A DNA stretch of 64,000 bases from the IMG/VR virus record IMGVR_UViG_3300015195_000004, positions 1 to 64,000 of that record; one strand, written 5' to 3'. Each line of letters begins with the position of its first letter. The stretch's first letter is position 1. Below are positions 3,748-63,528 of the stretch, piece after piece. Under the pieces are notes generated by a model. That model was not told the origin of the DNA. It saw nothing but the letters and a program-made list of their open reading frames with translations, and ran no database searches. This stretch comes from a virus. Made by a program: the position numbers and the translations under genes.

Positions 3748-4248
3748 CTATGCCTTAAAGTTAGGTTCTTCGGAAATAGGTTCCATACCAGCAGTCTTTA
3801 GTTGTCTAATAAGCTGCCTGCCCCAAACTAGTGCCAACTCTCGTTCAGCCTCTATCTTTTCCACTTCGTTTCTTTCTTCTTCTAATAATTCATTAACATG
3901 CTTTAGTAGCTCTTTTGCCGATTCTAGTTCTTCAGATAAGCGGTCTAGTCTAGACGATAGGTCATCTACAAAACCCTTAAAGTCGTCTCTACTAGACTCA
4001 ACAAATGCCAACTTAGCTTCTAGGGTTTTTGTCTTCATAGCTAAGGTTTGATTTTCTTCCACTACTCGTTTTACGTGGAACAGATGAATCCACAATCTTT
4101 CTATATTGTCTCTAATCTGGATTCTCCATCCAGTTATGGCCCCAGTTATGCCTAAGGCACTTAAGATTGTTATTATAGTTTGTATTTCTTGAGGAGTTAA
4201 GTTAGGAAGGAAGGGCAAATTTAGATTCATAATAGAGATTCCATTCAT
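3748..4248 (-). CDS. Membrane-anchored coiled-coil protein (lysis or holin/spanin candidate)
   Basis: This 166-residue protein has one hydrophobic segment near the N terminus (IQTIITILSALGITGAITGW, residues 22-41), followed by a long heptad-rich charged coiled coil (residues 60-145). One N-terminal membrane anchor plus a long coil, next to the lysozyme, is what an inner-membrane spanin (Rz-like) or a holin-associated protein looks like. No family match can be claimed from sequence alone. Its ATG follows the upstream stop directly (TAAATG). A second ATG 6 codons in (MNLNLP) has a better-spaced GGAA. Confidence 0.6.
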   Translation of the reverse strand: MNGISIMNLNLPFLPNLTPQEIQTIITILSALGITGAITGWRIQIRDNIERLWIHLFHVKRVVEENQTLAMKTKTLEAKLAFVESSRDDFKGFVDDLSSRLDRLSEELESAKELLKHVNELLEEERNEVEKIEAERELALVWGRQLIRQLKTAGMEPISEEPNFKA

Positions 4249-5019
4249 TTAGGATGCAGAAGTGTAAGAGCCAGAAACTACAAGATGTCCGCCAGATAAA
4301 GTAACATTTGCGTGGCCTCCGCCGCCTGTATTAGGAAGTGCGGGAAAGTAGGCATTAGTAGAACTTGCGGTAACAATACAACCAACATTAACATTAGTGC
4401 TATTTAAAACTACTGATAACCCCTGAAGGGTGCCTGTACAGGTAAATGGTAGAGAAATCATAGCCTGACTAGTATCAGCAGTAGTAGGGTAAGTTATATT
4501 TATTTGAACATTTACGTTTTTTCCTATTTTAATATAGGATGCGTTTGTAACAGTTAAAGTTAATCCTGCTCCTGATGTGTCAGTTAATACCCAAGTACCC
4601 ACTTCAAAATCATTCAGAGTGGATTGAGTCCCCCCGCCTGGATTGGCATTAAATGTTATCCCACCAGAAGCAGAAGTAATTAAACCACCAATAGTTGGTG
4701 TGGAACTGTATGACGGGGCAGTTGCTACTCCTCCAGACACCAGAACTGAATTAACAGCAACATCTGATAACCCTGCTAATGTGCCAGAGCCTGAAGCATA
4801 CAGAAGCTGTCCTGTAGTGTAGGAAGTAAGGTTAGTACCTCCTTGATTAACCGGCACTGTACCTGTAATCTTAGAAAAGGCTAAAGAAGGAATGTCGGTA
4901 GAGACTAAGGACCTAAATAGGCCAAACCCATGAGAACCATTCGGAGTAGCAAATACCTGATTCCCACTCTGGGCCTCTTCTTTAACTGGGGGGCCAAGTT
5001 CACGATCAAAATTCGGCAT
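4249..5019 (-). CDS. Tail fibre-like protein
   Basis: The N-terminal part has the repeat style of phage fibres (LAFSKITGTVPVNQGGTNL, followed by GQLLYASGSG). The rest is Gly/Ser/Thr-rich and beta-structured. It begins with the same attachment-like opening as the 5420 gene (MPNFDREL...PV compared with MSNYDARLGQ), so the two may share a docking segment. It would form part of the distal fibre for host recognition. It lies between the large tail protein and the lysis genes. Confidence 0.68.
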   Translation of the reverse strand: MPNFDRELGPPVKEEAQSGNQVFATPNGSHGFGLFRSLVSTDIPSLAFSKITGTVPVNQGGTNLTSYTTGQLLYASGSGTLAGLSDVAVNSVLVSGGVATAPSYSSTPTIGGLITSASGGITFNANPGGGTQSTLNDFEVGTWVLTDTSGAGLTLTVTNASYIKIGKNVNVQINITYPTTADTSQAMISLPFTCTGTLQGLSVVLNSTNVNVGCIVTASSTNAYFPALPNTGGGGHANVTLSGGHLVVSGSYTSAS

Positions 5020-38104: not shown

Positions 38105-39925
38105 TTACCAAGCTTTATATATTTCCTCAGGTTTGATTTCTATCATCCCACGGAACTTATAATTTTCATCCATTATAGTAGGAACTGCCATAGCATCAAC
38201 CATTTGAGGGGCTTTACTGCCCCATCTATGTTGAATCCTATATAGAATATATCCGTAAGACAGTGCTGAAGCAGCATCATGTTCTGCGTTCTTCCATATA
38301 TATTTAGGCATTTTATTCGTAGTAGTTTTAACTATCTCTTGAGTGCCGGTTTCAGCATTCTTAACTGTCTTCATAGCAAGATACTTTAACTGCATTACTG
38401 AGTCTTTTATCCTGTCATGAATAACTGCTGTTGAATTCTCACCATCTCCACCGTCTTCTTGATAGACAGCAGGGATTAAGATTGGACATTCTTCTCTAGA
38501 AAGAATCTTACGTAATCCATCATACATTAGATGAATCATAATATCTTCTGAGTGAATATTCTCTCCACCTCTAGAACGATCATTAGCAAATCCTGCCCGT
38601 ACCATCTCATCAGATGCACGATTTAGGATTAACTTACGCTGTCCAGAAATAGTTCTATATTCATCATGTTGCAGAATTGGGGTATCAATTTCATGAATAG
38701 TCCCGTCTCTTAAAGAAAGAGTCGGCTTCATCAGAGAATCAGTTACTTGTAGTCCCCCGCCGCCCTTATCCATTACAATCCACTCAGGATTGAAGGACTT
38801 GTTCAGCTTGTGAATCTCCCAAGCGGCATCATCAGTACTTAAACCTTTATTCCAGTAGGTGTAAACCAATCCCATTTTTTCATTAGGGAGGAATTTCCAT
38901 ACGTGAATAACAAAGTAGTCTCCGTGAAGTTGCGTAGCAACGTCAATAGAGAACCCATAGGTAAAGCCCTTTTCAGCCTTATATTCAATATTAATCTCAT
39001 TTGACGACATACGTTCAATTAGATCGCCAGGAAGGAATTGACCAGAACGGCCAACCCACTTGTTGTATAAAACCTGCTGCTTCTCTTCTTCAGACGCACC
39101 ATCAAGTTGCTGTTCTAAAATATCCCAGTCAACAGTATAGCCTTCTTTTTCGAGGTCATTAACATTAATGTCAATAATAATATACTTACGTTTATAGTTA
39201 TCGTCCTGTTGAGCCTTAATGTCTTCACCCTGTATATTCTTAATGAAGTTCTGTAGAACTGTATAGGCAAAGCAGTCTTGATACTCAGCAGAGGTCATTA
39301 CTACCAACTTAGGGCCATATGAACCTTGACCTTTGTGACCCTTTAGGAACGAAAGAACGTGGTCTTTATACATACTGCGTTCAATAGCAAAGAATTCGTC
39401 AATTACTAGAACATCTGCCCGCTCGCCTCGGATTCCTTCACCTTTTCCCATAGGGAGGGCCACATGCTGACTGCCATTCTTTAGCTTCAACCGGGACAAC
39501 ATCATTCCGCGAATAACTTGTCCATCTACTTCATTAGTTAAATCTAATGGTAGGTTTTCGTCTTGATTTTCTAGAATAGTGTTTACTGCATAGTTCCAAG
39601 GATGGAGTGCCTGCCTATAAGTAGGGGCAGCATAAACGATCTTAATTTTTCTTGTCATTGATTCGGCTGCTAGTGCTCTGCCGACCGAAAAGGACTTCGC
39701 GGCTCCTCTTATTGCTTGAATAAAGATGAACTTATGATCCCTAATGGCTTCTCTTATGTTATGCTGAGTGGGGAAGAGGCTAAAAGAGTTGGGGAAGAAC
39801 ATTGCATCAGCAAGATAAGAATTTTCTCGTAAATCAGAAATAAGACCAGGAACAGTAAAAGTGTCTGGATTTTCAACAGGAAATTTATAAGGTTTCGGGC
39901 ACCAAATCTTCTGTGGGTTCTCCAT
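38105..39925 (-). CDS. terL: Terminase large subunit, 606 aa
   Basis: This is the ATPase and nuclease that packages DNA. The ATPase shows a variant Walker A AIRGAAKSFS (71-80), Walker B VLVIDEF (172-178, Asp176-Glu177) and a motif III-like VVMTSAEY (208-215). The RNase H-type nuclease begins with FSIDVA (Asp328), continues with WIVMDKGGG (about 375) and ends near DAMAVP (about 583). The N terminus overlaps the small-subunit candidate by 41 bases, and translation is probably coupled. It heads the structural operon. Confidence 0.92.
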   Translation of the reverse strand: MENPQKIWCPKPYKFPVENPDTFTVPGLISDLRENSYLADAMFFPNSFSLFPTQHNIREAIRDHKFIFIQAIRGAAKSFSVGRALAAESMTRKIKIVYAAPTYRQALHPWNYAVNTILENQDENLPLDLTNEVDGQVIRGMMLSRLKLKNGSQHVALPMGKGEGIRGERADVLVIDEFFAIERSMYKDHVLSFLKGHKGQGSYGPKLVVMTSAEYQDCFAYTVLQNFIKNIQGEDIKAQQDDNYKRKYIIIDINVNDLEKEGYTVDWDILEQQLDGASEEEKQQVLYNKWVGRSGQFLPGDLIERMSSNEINIEYKAEKGFTYGFSIDVATQLHGDYFVIHVWKFLPNEKMGLVYTYWNKGLSTDDAAWEIHKLNKSFNPEWIVMDKGGGGLQVTDSLMKPTLSLRDGTIHEIDTPILQHDEYRTISGQRKLILNRASDEMVRAGFANDRSRGGENIHSEDIMIHLMYDGLRKILSREECPILIPAVYQEDGGDGENSTAVIHDRIKDSVMQLKYLAMKTVKNAETGTQEIVKTTTNKMPKYIWKNAEHDAASALSYGYILYRIQHRWGSKAPQMVDAMAVPTIMDENYKFRGMIEIKPEEIYKAW

Positions 39926-44788: not shown

Positions 44789-45025
44789 TTAAAAAGGCCA
44801 ATCTTTAGGTAATGTTGCTTTAAGCTGATTCTGCCATTTTCTATTCTGAAATAGTGCCGCTATGCACTCCTCAGAGCAGAAGTGAAATTCCGGGGTGCAG
44901 TCTAGGTTTTCTGAGCCATAGCCGAAACTGAGGCTAACTGTGTTAAAATCAGTAACTATTTGGCACTGATCACAAATAAAGCCAGTTTGTATCCAAGTCT
45001 TTTGTAGTTCTGTTCTTATACTCAT
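44789..45025 (-). CDS. Zinc-binding small protein, 78 aa
   Basis: FICDQCQIV (C-x2-C) and HFCSEECIAAL (C-x3-C) form a likely zinc site, similar to host-modulating small phage proteins. The ATG at 45025 overlaps the upstream stop (ATGA). It is the last gene before the next promoter, which starts one base away. Confidence 0.6.
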   Translation of the reverse strand: MSIRTELQKTWIQTGFICDQCQIVTDFNTVSLSFGYGSENLDCTPEFHFCSEECIAALFQNRKWQNQLKATLPKDWPF

Positions 45026-45396
45026 ACAAATGTTCCAATCTCCCATTTCTTTGCCTGATATTCGGGGCAGTTCGTTTGAAAAATAAATTCCAACTTAGTA
45101 GCCTTCGCAAAATAATACTCTGTCAAAGCCCCAGGGGACTTTTCCCAACCGTCTAGTAAATAAATTGCCTGGCAAGTAGCTATAAGTTTTATATCATGTA
45201 CTAGAATGTCTGTATAGTTAAAGTTTGCCGGATGGCCCTTACTCCAGTCATGAAAAGGATAGAGCCTGCGGTCCTCTGAGGCTGGTGAAATTACTTCCCA
45301 TCCTTGTTTGGTAAGAAGCTTCTCAGCAGAATCAAATGCTGGAAAGTTAAGGTCTTTGTAGCCGCTTATACCCCCGCATATATATAGACGTTTCAT
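45022..45396 (-). CDS. Nucleoside 2-deoxyribosyltransferase-like protein, 124 aa
   Basis: MKRLYICGGISGYKDLNFPA, AEKLLTKQGWEVISPASED and IYLLDGWEKSPGALTEYYFA match the phage family often annotated DUF4406/nucleoside 2-deoxyribosyltransferase-like: a Rossmann-like fold with a G-G-I-S/T-G start, a DGWxxSxGAxxE motif and a predicted nucleotide ligand. It may salvage or modify deoxynucleosides, which fits the two deaminase-like genes nearby. Confidence 0.82.
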   Translation of the reverse strand: MKRLYICGGISGYKDLNFPAFDSAEKLLTKQGWEVISPASEDRRLYPFHDWSKGHPANFNYTDILVHDIKLIATCQAIYLLDGWEKSPGALTEYYFAKATKLEFIFQTNCPEYQAKKWEIGTFV

Positions 45397-46530: not shown

Positions 46531-46893
46531 CTATAACACTCTTTCTGAAGCAAATCCAAGCTCTGTGGTGTAAACAAACTTTCTGATTTTCCCTGTTGCC
46601 TTAATTAATTCGAGGCATTCTTTACAGGGTCTGCTCATTCCTAATGATCCATCATGCTTACTGCGATAAATATATAATACAGCATTTCTATCCTCTTTGT
46701 CAAGGTGCCGCATTACGGCCAATTCGCAGTGTATCCAGTTCTCCCTACTTTTGCTAGAAGGGTGCGTTTTAAATATATTGGACGAAACTGCCATCTTATT
46801 ACCTACCATAAGAACAGCTACCATTTTTTTACGTTTCCAGCCATCTTTATTAAAGTAATTACGTGCCATCTTCAGGCCAAAAGGTAGTTTCAT
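46531..46893 (-). CDS. Cytidine deaminase-fold protein, 120 aa
   Basis: The two zinc motifs of the cytidine deaminase superfamily are present: HCELAV (His55, Glu57) and RPCKECLEL (Cys90, Cys93). Length and spacing (about 33 residues) fit small nucleoside, tRNA or DNA deaminases. Substrate is unknown; a basic surface (KRKKM, SSKSRENW) leaves nucleic acid possible. It sits in a nucleotide-metabolism cluster with a deoxyribosyltransferase-like gene and a second deaminase at 47342. Confidence 0.78.
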   Translation of the reverse strand: MKLPFGLKMARNYFNKDGWKRKKMVAVLMVGNKMAVSSNIFKTHPSSKSRENWIHCELAVMRHLDKEDRNAVLYIYRSKHDGSLGMSRPCKECLELIKATGKIRKFVYTTELGFASERVL

Positions 46894-47341: not shown

Positions 47342-47695
47342 TTATTCTTGTGTCCAGAACATTTTCTGAATGCCTGCTTGCTTAAGGCGCATTTCGCAAC
47401 GGGCACACGGTTTGTGGGTAGCATATAAAATACTACCATCAACACTAATGCCGAATTTTGCGGCAGTCAACAGGGCATTTTCTGAATCATGAATAGTTCT
47501 TTGGCAGTGATTAGACTCCACAAGACATCCTACTTCATCACACTCAGGAGCACCTGACTGACTTCCGTTATAACCAGTAGCGAGAATCCTATTATCCCGT
47601 ACTAAAACACATCCTACTCGTTTTCTAGGACATGTAGCTCTAGTAGAAATTACTTGAGCCAAGTTAAGGAAATAAGTTTCCCATGAAGGTTTCAT
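47342..47695 (-). CDS. dCMP deaminase-family protein with altered active site, 117 aa
   Basis: The family converts dCMP to dUMP for thymidylate synthesis. Zinc ligands His69 (RTIHDSENAL) and Cys97/Cys100 (KPCARC), and the N-terminal GCVLVRDNRILATGYNGS segment, are family-typical. The usual H-A-E-x-N-A signature reads H-D-S-E-N-A: the catalytic glutamate position is Ser71, with Glu72 next to it. Activity may be lost, shifted, or regulated. It overlaps the RlmN-like gene by 4 bases. Confidence 0.85.
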   Translation of the reverse strand: MKPSWETYFLNLAQVISTRATCPRKRVGCVLVRDNRILATGYNGSQSGAPECDEVGCLVESNHCQRTIHDSENALLTAAKFGISVDGSILYATHKPCARCEMRLKQAGIQKMFWTQE

Positions 47696-48567
47696 TTTCC
47701 TACGAACATCCCGCAGGACGCCTTAACATCGAATCCGACCTTACCTATTATTTTAACATCTGACCCAGGCAGAGAATCTTTAAGGAACTGAGCATTTCGT
47801 TCAATAATACACACTTCAGGTTCTTTACCTTGCAGAGTTGAATAAGGATTATATCTCACCACATTAAAATCAACTCGTAGATTAAAGGCCTTTATTGCTT
47901 CTACAATACTAGTCAAAGTTTCTATAGAATCATTCTCGCCCTCAATAAATGCCCAGTGCAACTTAATAATCTTGTGGGACTCGTCTTGATAGTCCTTCAG
48001 TTTCTCTAGGGCTAGAAGGGGGTCTAATGCCTTAGGCAACCACCTCTTACGGAATGTGGGGTCCATACTATAGAGGGAATAGTAAATGTCTGGTGTGTAG
48101 TCCTGGAAAATCTCTGAGAGGTTCTTATCCTTCATTTCAAGAGGCATAATAGTTGAATACTTAAACTTAGGAATTACATTATAATCTCTAGCAATGTCTC
48201 CAAGGGCTCTGCATAGCCTACTTCCTCCCTGGTTATCAATTACACGAGGGTTACAGAATACTTCTCCGCGTGACATAAAATTAAAATGCATAGACTTAGC
48301 AGGTTCTTTAGTTACATAATGCTCGCACACTTGCCAAGCCTGTTCCTGGTAATCCTCAATATCAAGGAACTTATACTTCGTTTGTCCTGTTTGAGTAAGG
48401 TGACACATTCTGCAGGCTTTATCACAGCCAGTCATACTAGACAGATAGCAGATAAAGTACTCATCAGTACGTCTTACATACCTGGCCTCAATCTTACCAG
48501 GAAAGTCGCCTTCTGTTACAAAGTTAACTGAGGCGTCTTCTTGACTATGAAATATTGTATTTGACAT
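47692..48567 (-). CDS. RlmN-like radical SAM protein (adenine C2-methyltransferase family), 291 aa
   Basis: RlmN/Cfr enzymes methylate adenine C2/C8 of 23S rRNA and tRNA. The iron-sulphur motif C-x3-C-x2-C is CDKACRMC (48, 52, 55). Other RlmN landmarks are FMSRGE, the FKYSTI strand, the RKRWLP region, FNVVRYNP and a C-terminal VKASCGMF (Cys285), the position of the methyl-carrier cysteine. Cys40 may be its partner. It lacks the usual N-terminal accessory domain (normal length about 370-380), so substrate contact should differ. Phage RlmN-like proteins are known in metagenomes, but their target is not settled. Confidence 0.85.
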   Translation of the reverse strand: MSNTIFHSQEDASVNFVTEGDFPGKIEARYVRRTDEYFICYLSSMTGCDKACRMCHLTQTGQTKYKFLDIEDYQEQAWQVCEHYVTKEPAKSMHFNFMSRGEVFCNPRVIDNQGGSRLCRALGDIARDYNVIPKFKYSTIMPLEMKDKNLSEIFQDYTPDIYYSLYSMDPTFRKRWLPKALDPLLALEKLKDYQDESHKIIKLHWAFIEGENDSIETLTSIVEAIKAFNLRVDFNVVRYNPYSTLQGKEPEVCIIERNAQFLKDSLPGSDVKIIGKVGFDVKASCGMFVGK

Positions 48568-48589: not shown

Positions 48590-49285
48590 TTACTTCTCTA
48601 ACTCCTCTAAAAACTTCTTGTATATAATAGCTCCGTATGTTCCTACTTCTGTTATTCCTGCACTTATTAATGTTCCGTTCATTTTTGCAGCTAATGCCGC
48701 ATTTAGGGCAGCAGACATAAGTTCTGGTATCACTTTGTACTTACTAGGGAACCTAGCATAATCATTCCATAGATCAAAAGTAGGGTCAGGAACACTAACA
48801 TCAATTCCCTTAGTGGCTTCTTGGTATGCAGATTCTATACTATTGCATAATGCTTGATTATAGTTCTGGGCTTGAGATTTATCAAATCCTCCCCAATAGT
48901 TCTCATGAAGCTCAATAGGTATGTGGTTATCGTTCAGAAATTTATAATCTTCCATATTAGGATTAGCTTGTGACACAACGCACTCTTCACAGGTTTTAGG
49001 ATCATGAGGATGCAGCATAGTTTCACTTTGATAATCATCAGAGGCCGAACTATCGTAGTAGTCTGATTCCCAGTCAGCAATATCCTCATTCACAAACTCT
49101 AGTTCATGGTCCTTAAACACGTTCCCTTCTCCAGGAAATGGAGTTAGCACTATCCAGCCTGTGGAATCGAATTCCTTAACAGTATATACCTGGTCTGTGG
49201 CATAAACATAATCCGATTGTGTTGGAGTTTTAATCCTAACCAAATCTCCAATTTCAAAAATACTTCTCATCTGGCTCCCTATCAT
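48590..49285 (-). CDS. Hypothetical protein with KOW/SH3-like N terminus, 231 aa
   Basis: The N-terminal 55 residues (IFEIGDLVRIKTPTQSDYVY, DQVYTVKEFD) look like a small SH3-like beta barrel. A CEECV motif and HPHDPKTC suggest a metal site in the middle, and the C-terminal part is helical. The ATG at 49285 follows GAGGAGA and overlaps the upstream stop by 4 bases. Function unknown. Confidence 0.6.
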   Translation of the reverse strand: MIGSQMRSIFEIGDLVRIKTPTQSDYVYATDQVYTVKEFDSTGWIVLTPFPGEGNVFKDHELEFVNEDIADWESDYYDSSASDDYQSETMLHPHDPKTCEECVVSQANPNMEDYKFLNDNHIPIELHENYWGGFDKSQAQNYNQALCNSIESAYQEATKGIDVSVPDPTFDLWNDYARFPSKYKVIPELMSAALNAALAAKMNGTLISAGITEVGTYGAIIYKKFLEELEK

Positions 49286-49515
49286 ATCTTTTCTCCTCTG
49301 TGATTCCACAATCCTAGTAAACACATAATTAAGTACACTGAATAGCTGCAAAATAAGCCCCAAGCGTGATAGTGCCATGCAACCGGCATTAAGGCTACAT
49401 CAGATAAAGTGCCTAACAAAAACCCCTGGTTAGGCCTCTTATAGGCCAGCATCATTGATCCTAAGGGACCAGCAACAGAACCTAGTATCTCCAGTACCCA
49501 ATAAGGATTAAGCAA
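49282..49515 (-). CDS. Small membrane protein, PnuC-like half, 77 aa
   Basis: Two or three hydrophobic segments (GSVAGPLGSMMLAYK, VYLIMCLLGLW) and the arrangement GxxxGPLG...YKRPNQGFLLG...AWGLFCSY...GLWNHRG recall one repeat of PnuC/YgjV-type nicotinamide riboside transporters. As only a half-size unit, it would have to dimerise. Moderate-to-low certainty. Its start overlaps the previous stop by 8 bases. Confidence 0.58.
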   Translation of the reverse strand: MLNPYWVLEILGSVAGPLGSMMLAYKRPNQGFLLGTLSDVALMPVAWHYHAWGLFCSYSVYLIMCLLGLWNHRGEKI

Positions 49516-62610: not shown

Positions 62611-62723
62611 TGCTACTTCTTGCAGCACATTTGGTAGTTTTATCCTTCATTATACTAGGATTAAAACTAATAGAATCTCCAGAGTATAAGAAATACAGAA
62701 AGCAACGTGGCTACTTCTTGTAA
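62610..62723 (+). CDS. Small membrane peptide, 37 aa
   Basis: One hydrophobic segment (LLLAAHLVVLSFIILGLKLI) and a basic tail (YKKYRKQRGYF): an N-out/C-in membrane peptide. TAATG coupling to the previous gene; the recombinase starts 16 bases later. Confidence 0.56.
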   Translation: MLLLAAHLVVLSFIILGLKLIESPEYKKYRKQRGYFL

Positions 62724-62739
62724 GCCTAAAGGAATTATT

Positions 62740-63528
62740 ATGAACCTCGAAAATGCCTTTTCTGATTATGTAAAGTGGATGCTCCAGAATCGGAAATCTC
62801 CTCTATCTGCGAAATCTTATGCCGAAACTTTTAACCAGTTTTCAAGAGCAGGCTATGGGATTGTTGAAGATACGGCAGTTGAATCCTTCCTACAGGCTTT
62901 CCCCACCCTCTCTACGAGAAATAAGAAGATAGCTCACCTTCGGGCATTTAGTTCTTGGGTTAATCGGAAGCCTAGTTTACGCGAAGCAGGATTAGTTAAG
63001 GACTTTACCTTCCAGCAGACTAAGCTGCCGGTTTCTTTGCCGGTTATCGTTTCGCAGGAGGTTCTGGACCCATTCCTTGAACGCCTAGAAGACGAAAACC
63101 CTTTCGTTTGGGCACACGCGGTCCTTCTAAAATACACGGGATTACGCTTCACTGAAGCATGGAGTTTACGAGAGGGTCATTTATGTTACCCCTCACCTGG
63201 GGTCGCTTGTATTAAGTTTCGAGGCAAGCGGCAGAATGAAAGAATCGTCGTTTTGAATAAGGAGGGGCTTGCAGCATTCAAAATATGGACCAAGCAGAAC
63301 GCTTTCGTTTCTCCAGCAGTGATTAGAACCACCTGGAAGAGGCTACAAGAGGGTTCAGAGGCGTTTGTGCCTCATGTTGTGCGGCATACTACAGCAAGCA
63401 ATATGCGGGCCTCTGGGGCATCTTATGACCAGATTGCGGATTTGCTTGGCAACTCAGTTTCCGTTTGTCGAGAGCGGTATTCGCGTGTTGATATTAATGG
63501 AATGAAGGATATTATGGATAAGCTCTAA
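62740..63528 (+). CDS. Tyrosine recombinase/integrase, 262 aa
   Basis: A SAM-like core-binding domain (1-90) is followed by the catalytic domain. Arg136 in YTGLRFTEAW, Lys163 in FRGKRQNE, His212-x2-Arg215 in HVVRH and Tyr247 in RERYSRVD fit the R-K-HxxR-Y set. The second His/Trp position is Asn238 (LLGNS) instead of the usual LGH. It is XerC/D-sized, without an N-terminal arm-binding domain. It could integrate the phage or resolve genome multimers; no att repeat was found in the window. The ATG at 62740 has AAAGGA. Confidence 0.88.
   Translation: MNLENAFSDYVKWMLQNRKSPLSAKSYAETFNQFSRAGYGIVEDTAVESFLQAFPTLSTRNKKIAHLRAFSSWVNRKPSLREAGLVKDFTFQQTKLPVSLPVIVSQEVLDPFLERLEDENPFVWAHAVLLKYTGLRFTEAWSLREGHLCYPSPGVACIKFRGKRQNERIVVLNKEGLAAFKIWTKQNAFVSPAVIRTTWKRLQEGSEAFVPHVVRHTTASNMRASGASYDQIADLLGNSVSVCRERYSRVDINGMKDIMDKL

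Follow-up and report, generated by a model that had tools for sequence, protein, structure and literature searches.

The window analysed here, a 64,000-nucleotide stretch of viral DNA (positions 1 to 64,000 of IMG/VR record IMGVR_UViG_3300015195_000004), encodes a 291 aa radical-SAM protein that shares the RlmN/Cfr fold and retains the methyl-carrier cysteine, and that has tyrosine at the position of the essential resolving cysteine. Judged from alignments and a sequence tree, proteins of this tyrosine type form a clade distinct from both RlmN and Cfr, and are found in large phages, tRNA-rich plasmids and some bacterial chromosomes. We propose, with moderate confidence, that the protein is an RNA base-modifying radical-SAM enzyme of this clade with altered crosslink resolution; its substrate, which we infer, is probably tRNA.

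A radical-SAM gene in phage DNA

The window is phage DNA, since it carries a terminase large subunit gene and an integrase-like gene. The source record is 88,709 bases long and may be a fragment. The integrase-like gene, on a phage that also has a ribonucleotide reductase piece, may indicate a temperate phage. The features of the window are as follows.

47692..48567, minus strand: radical-SAM protein, RlmN/Cfr fold, 291 aa, PHROG_27142 family (from ORF, profile matches and predicted structure)
48403..48426, minus strand: [4Fe-4S] motif C48-X3-C52-X2-C55, found in 58/58 non-redundant viral members and aligned with RlmN C125/C129/C132
48445..48447, minus strand: Tyr41 codon, aligned with the resolving cysteine of RlmN (C118) and Cfr (C105) by family alignment and HHalign
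47713..47715, minus strand: Cys285 codon, aligned with the methyl carrier of RlmN (C355) and Cfr (C338); cysteine in 80/80 family members with letters there
47342..47695, minus strand: dCMP-deaminase-like gene, next downstream of the radical-SAM gene (PHROG_174, E 3.8e-36)
48590..49378, minus strand: upstream ORF of 262 aa, with no PHROG or Pfam match and no sequence sign of the RlmN N-terminal domain
46531-46893, minus strand: second small deaminase-like ORF near the dCMP deaminase gene (PHROG_18355, E 6.6e-6; PHROG_174, E 3e-5)
45022-45396, minus strand: DUF4406 / nucleoside 2-deoxyribosyltransferase-like gene (PHROG_355, E 1.1e-21)
25-759: ribonucleotide reductase piece
38105-39925: terminase large subunit
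62707-63528, plus strand: integrase-like gene (PHROG_1, E 5.8e-15)

The ORF at 47692-48567, which the sequence-only reading had taken to be a short phage RlmN-like methyltransferase, is a real ORF, with an ATG start and an AAGGA-like ribosome-binding sequence, read from the sequence, directly 5' of it on the minus strand. Its best NCBIfam match was TIGR00048 (RlmN; E 3.6e-13), at a score of 49.2 bits that lies below the curated RlmN cut-off of 290. Cfr models of NCBIfam matched at E of about 1e-6, where TIGR04432 (Cfr) gave 26.7 bits, below its curated cut-off of 550, and the radical-SAM matches in a Pfam search were all sub-threshold. PHROG_27142 matched over its full length, with residues 5-289 of the protein on positions 8-299 of 300 (E 2.1e-104). 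As profile evidence, the match to RlmN-type and PHROG_27142 models, together with the 23 phage records described below, is far above chance.

An AlphaFold model of the protein, built with 56 sequences, had a mean pLDDT of 94.2 and a pTM of 0.91. Structural comparison with RlmN and Cfr, which had been suggested as a check, showed a shared core fold. VIA-align placed RlmN entries at Z 26-28, with the top value of 28.4 for 5hr7, the RlmN-tRNA crosslink structure; the Sphaerobacter radical-SAM methyltransferase 6fz6 followed at 28.1 and Cfr (9p0p) at 19.9, with pyruvate formate-lyase activase next at 16.9. The best match in the viral structure library was B3FJU2 of phage 201phi2-1.

The missing N-terminal domain and the local gene order

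The absence of the N-terminal accessory domain, noted earlier from the sequence, was borne out. HHalign started at RlmN residue 85, leaving the HhH2 RNA-binding domain without counterpart, and all structural alignments to E. coli RlmN started at residue 80 or 81. In RlmN/Cfr the core touches the anticodon stem or H90, and the N-terminal domain touches other arms, according to passages of PMC13001441. An adjacent gene as supplier of the domain was rejected, as BLASTP of RlmN residues 1-95 against 5157 ORFs from 85 loci, which detects only a sequence-similar domain, gave a best E of 0.37. Loss of the domain is not a distinguishing mark of the tyrosine family, because the RlmN-like proteins of Vibrio phage 166E36-1 and Salmonella phage Arash have an about equally short stretch ahead of the cluster motif and yet keep the cysteine.

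The radical-SAM gene and the dCMP-deaminase-like gene overlap, with the stop codon of the former and the start codon of the latter sharing the letters ATGA. This overlap, the deoxyribosyltransferase-like gene (45022-45396) and reductase piece (25-759) in the same window, and the lack of the RNA-binding N-terminal domain would all suit an enzyme that acts on nucleotides or DNA bases within phage nucleotide metabolism and has no RNA substrate. We consider this role unlikely, because a dCMP-deaminase homologue lies near only 3/85 loci, the window locus included, because the closest relatives act on RNA, and because the wider context consists of tRNA genes, RtcB and CCA-adding enzyme. A conserved operon with dCMP deaminase was rejected on the same 3/85 loci.

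Tyrosine replaces the resolving cysteine

In RlmN and Cfr, the crosslink between protein and RNA is broken when C118 or C105, respectively, abstracts the proton from C2/C8; this cysteine is essential in both enzymes, and C118A RlmN and C105A Cfr remain crosslinked to RNA (passages of PMC13001441 and PMC9692996). When the window protein was compared with an RlmN alignment by HHalign (probability 99.8), its Y41 fell on RlmN C118 and its residue 6 on residue 85 of RlmN. The neighbouring C40 was examined as a replacement for C118 and rejected, since Y41 falls on C118 with a gapless stretch to the cluster and since position 40 is cysteine in only 9/58 viral members.

The C118/C105 position was tyrosine in 81/81 family members from phages, plasmids and chromosomes, a count that leaves out L016 and L076 with V/I at the position, and was cysteine in 22/22 RlmN/Cfr sequences, of which 20, the non-coli RlmN rows, were taken as tblastn segments out of gene-carrying genomes and do not make up a broad RlmN sample. 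Removal of exact copies and of sequences at least 90% identical reduced the viral set from 63 to 58; the residue seven positions before the first cluster cysteine was tyrosine in 56 of these, valine and isoleucine in two divergent members and cysteine in none. L103, L106, L072, L073 and L077 were dropped as fragments, L017 was grouped with the other phage proteins, and the plasmid loci L137 and L138 lie outside the alignment.

The cluster cysteines and the C-terminal methyl-carrier cysteine, both reported by the sequence-only reading, were confirmed: C48/C52/C55 and C285 align with RlmN C125/C129/C132 and C355. The cluster cysteines were kept in 58/58 non-redundant viral members and C285 in 57/57, the missing row being truncated; C285 was also present in all 80 viral, plasmid and cellular members with letters at that position. 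The aligned C355 was absent in 1/21 RlmN rows. The carrier cysteine sits in a loop, D-V-x-A-S-C-G, that is almost invariant in the family.

The further statement that other landmarks of RlmN/Cfr are present did not hold. Besides the resolving cysteine, which is Tyr41, the arginine RlmN R344 / Cfr R327 aligns with Ile274 of the window protein. This position was Arg in 22/22 RlmN/Cfr sequences versus Ile/Val in 79/80 of the tyrosine family, with the equivalence of Cfr Arg327 and RlmN R344 set by counting from the carrier cysteine. Cfr Arg327 touches the ribose of A2503, as described in passages of a preprint (PMC13001441). The switches relative to RlmN/Cfr were K94 to N15, V107 to R29, M178 to R100, H235 to Y166, E278 to H204 and R344 to I/V, and further family-wide switches were found at T58 and N96. 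Kept residues were E27 (RlmN E105), M98, G101, E102, S138, N212, N240 and C285. Class A radical-SAM methylases are defined by two conserved cysteines serving methyl transfer (a passage of PMC9692996); the carrier cysteine is the only conserved non-cluster cysteine of the family, which thus falls outside that definition.

With N15, R29, R100, Y166, H204 and I/V at R344 all switched from residues conserved in RlmN/Cfr, the RlmN fold might serve a wholly different reaction, for example on a peptide or a small molecule. We judge this quite unlikely, given the association with tRNA genes and the near-invariant D-V-x-A-S-C-G loop, which makes a methyl(ene)-carrier reaction likely. Loss of the cysteine also brings to mind a trapping enzyme, which would form a lasting covalent protein-RNA adduct, like C118A RlmN, and so tag or block host RNA. 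The position is never cysteine in the family, and C118A RlmN and C105A Cfr pile up crosslinks (passages of PMC13001441 and PMC9692996). The tyrosine, however, is invariant and does not drift, pointing to a role in catalysis or structure, and some members are chromosomal, a setting in which a suicidal trap for RNA would carry a high cost. Trapping seems to us very unlikely.

A distinct clade in phages, plasmids and chromosomes

Homologues were found by tblastn in 23 phage records, 21 of them at 43-48% identity and two distant ones at 24-26%. Carriers at 43-48% identity included the Pseudomonas phages 201phi2-1, Phabio, Psa21 and RVTF4 and large phages of Caulobacter and Brevundimonas. Eight plasmids among 72,556 plasmid records carried the gene (tblastn, 41-51% identity). 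The search of IMG/VR gave 6 loci with a single-sequence query and 60 with an alignment query, and that of GTDB genome contigs gave 21 loci from Nocardia, Planctomycetota, Myxococcales, Alphaproteobacteria, Pseudomonas, Achromobacter and others.

In a tree computed without the C118 column, 80 tyrosine sequences lay on one side of a branch with SH-aLRT 98. The Val/Ile pair adjoined this clade, and RlmN, Cfr and the other phage proteins were placed opposite. The tree was made by a quick method, with midpoint rooting for drawing only and the truncated L062 left out; Tunturi_5, L129, L102 and L105 form long branches. By this placement the tyrosine-type proteins are a clade distinct from RlmN and Cfr.

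An RlmN above the curated cut-off was also present in 14/18 bacterial/archaeal genomes carrying the tyrosine-type gene, which is thus no stand-in for RlmN. This bears on the simplest reading, an ordinary phage-borne RlmN/Cfr that makes m2A or m8A at A2503/A37, in which tyrosine would do the job of the cysteine and the N-terminal domain would be dispensable. The fold shared from RlmN residue 80 on, the retained cluster and carrier cysteine and the best NCBIfam match to RlmN are in keeping with it. Against these stand the tyrosine in 81/81 at an essential position, the lost nucleotide-contact Arg, scores of 49 against 290 (RlmN) and 26.7 against 550 (Cfr) bits, the separate clade and the RlmN already owned by 14/18 cellular carriers. 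An ordinary RlmN/Cfr is therefore improbable in our view, to the same degree as the nucleotide or DNA-base enzyme considered above. Of the original proposal, the phage gene and the RlmN/Cfr-type fold are retained and an RNA-modification role is plausible, but methylation of A2503/A37 in the manner of RlmN/Cfr is disfavoured.

None of the open-licence papers found on jumbo-phage RlmN, radical SAM and phage tRNA modification showed a functional study of the tyrosine-type family, as far as their abstracts and passages go. The terms 'radical SAM', 'RlmN' and 'Cfr' were absent from the text passages of PMC7824862 on jumbo phages, as were 'RlmN' and 'radical SAM' from those of PMC13191261 on tRNA modification in viruses. 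In the passages on 201phi2-1 and radical SAM, the sole radical SAM passage concerned Ralstonia phage genes.

Association with tRNA genes and other neighbours

All 8 gene-carrying plasmids had tRNA genes (37, 52, 56, 37, 9, 55, 44 and 41, counted record-wide), as against 0, 0, 1, 1 and 0 on 5 large plasmids without the gene, controls that were hand-picked as 3 large records from an unrelated chemotaxis-protein search and 2 well-known Sinorhizobium megaplasmids. The Acidiphilium plasmid NZ_CP041717.1 (L083; 268,632 bases) has 37 tRNA genes, an unusual density for a plasmid. Carriage of tRNAs was not sufficient for presence of the gene, as 497 plasmid records matched the tRNA stretch of pMPPla107 versus 8 plasmids with the gene. 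Among viral records of the tyrosine clade, tRNAs were found in 33/35 of those tested of at least 100 kb, with at least 20 tRNAs in 15 of the 33, and the five shorter records tested had 0, 0, 0, 30 and 29. Since large phages often carry tRNAs anyway (a passage of PMC7824862), the phage counts are weak evidence for the association. The tRNA scan gave no match in phage 201phi2-1 and record G037.

In 18/60 viral loci, tRNA genes lay within about 6 kb of the gene; of the chromosomal and plasmid loci, 1/27 had one close to it. Up to 21 surrounded it (L031; 13 in L078 and 9 in L029), and in some contigs the gene lay inside a tRNA array. Position 37 was A in 89/107 tRNAs adjoining the gene, a raw proportion. 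Within 6.5 kb, RtcB was present at 7/85 loci, CCA-adding enzyme at 4, an AbiEii-type nucleotidyltransferase at 8 and a WGR-PARP protein at 6. The last, an ADP-ribosyltransferase, was seen in the large-phage contigs L035, L037, L038, L042 and L044 and also in L016. In 8 bacterial contigs from Planctomycetota, Myxococcales and others (L087, L089, L090, L091, L092, L094, L095 and L097), the homologue is divergent from a conserved pair of AbiEii-type nucleotidyltransferase and leucine-rich-repeat protein, which lies about 1-2 kb upstream. For the window itself, a tRNA scan of the 64 kb found none and an Rfam scan gave no match; the whole 88.7-kb record was likewise negative for tRNA, RtcB and the CCA-adding type (PF01743).

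Proposed role

RlmN-like working is expected only up to the methyl-carrier step. In the RNA-modifying enzyme that we favour, a first SAM would methylate Cys285, as in RlmN; the cluster would then cleave a second SAM to give a methylene radical on Cys285, which would add to an sp2 carbon of the RNA base. Since Cys118 is absent, the adduct would be resolved by another route, by Tyr41 and/or family-specific residues such as Y166, H204, R100 and R276, or the substrate may differ such that a cysteine base is not needed. The gene context makes tRNA the likeliest substrate, and the anticodon stem-loop would be the probable target, as the retained catalytic core contacts it in RlmN/Cfr. The modified tRNAs may be those travelling with the large mobile elements, or those of the host, and would thereby keep decoding well or be shielded from anticodon-cutting defences; phage tRNAs have been described as an answer to tRNA-targeting defences (PMC10264068, PMC11555353). 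The likeliest benefit would be to the translation fitness of large mobile elements, perhaps in the face of anticodon nucleases. Several observations weigh against this reading: the 88.7-kb record of the window lacks tRNA, RtcB and PF01743 and has the gene beside nucleotide-metabolism genes, 201phi2-1 and G037 are without tRNA, most chromosomal/plasmid loci have no close tRNA, and tyrosine is no obvious stand-in for a cysteine base. A bolder version, which we offer only tentatively, is an RNA methylase clade that uses tyrosine in place of the cysteine base, resolves or exploits the crosslink by new chemistry, and installs an undescribed modification on the tRNAs of jumbo phages and megaplasmids, probably against anticodon nucleases.

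More than 80 sequences from phages, plasmids and chromosomes that keep the carrier cysteine and always have tyrosine at the resolving position amount to a natural test of the RlmN/Cfr mechanism. If the substrate is tRNA, the family would consist of modification enzymes that move together with mobile sets of tRNAs, and would bear on the reason such elements carry tRNAs. The name 'RlmN' on such phage genes is unsafe.

Comparison with known systems

With RlmN (E. coli b2517; TIGR00048; PDB 5hr7, 3rfa) the window protein shares the core fold (Z 28.4, rmsd 2.4 over 270 residues, 17% identity), the CX3CX2C motif, the carrier cysteine and equivalents of E105, M176 and N312. It differs from RlmN in lacking the N-terminal HhH2 domain, in having tyrosine for C118 and, across the family, Ile/Val for R344, and in its separate clade. 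With Cfr (PDB 9p0p; cfr of Staphylococcus plasmids) it shares the core fold (Z 19.9), the cluster motif and the carrier cysteine, but C105 is replaced by tyrosine, the R327 contact is lost, the N-terminal domain is missing and the score is 26.7 against 550 bits. The short phage RlmN-like proteins of Vibrio phage 166E36-1, Salmonella phage Arash and Tunturiibacter phage Tunturi_5 also lack the N-terminal domain and have 50-52 residues before the cluster motif; unlike the window protein, 3/3 keep the resolving cysteine and fall, in the tree, on the side of RlmN and Cfr, Tunturi_5 as a long branch. The first two are encoded at 3992-4918 (L145) and 3887-4816 (L146), respectively, and in Vibrio phage 166E36-1 a nicotinamide phosphoribosyl transferase gene adjoins the gene. 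PHROG_27142, 'Fe-S-cluster redox domain-containing' (201phi2-1 gp434, Phabio, Psa21, CcrColossus and others), is the window protein's own family, and the names in its records go no further than RlmN-like and Fe-S. By the sequence criteria tested here, the window protein is neither RlmN nor Cfr, and its annotation as an A2503/A37 methylase should be avoided.
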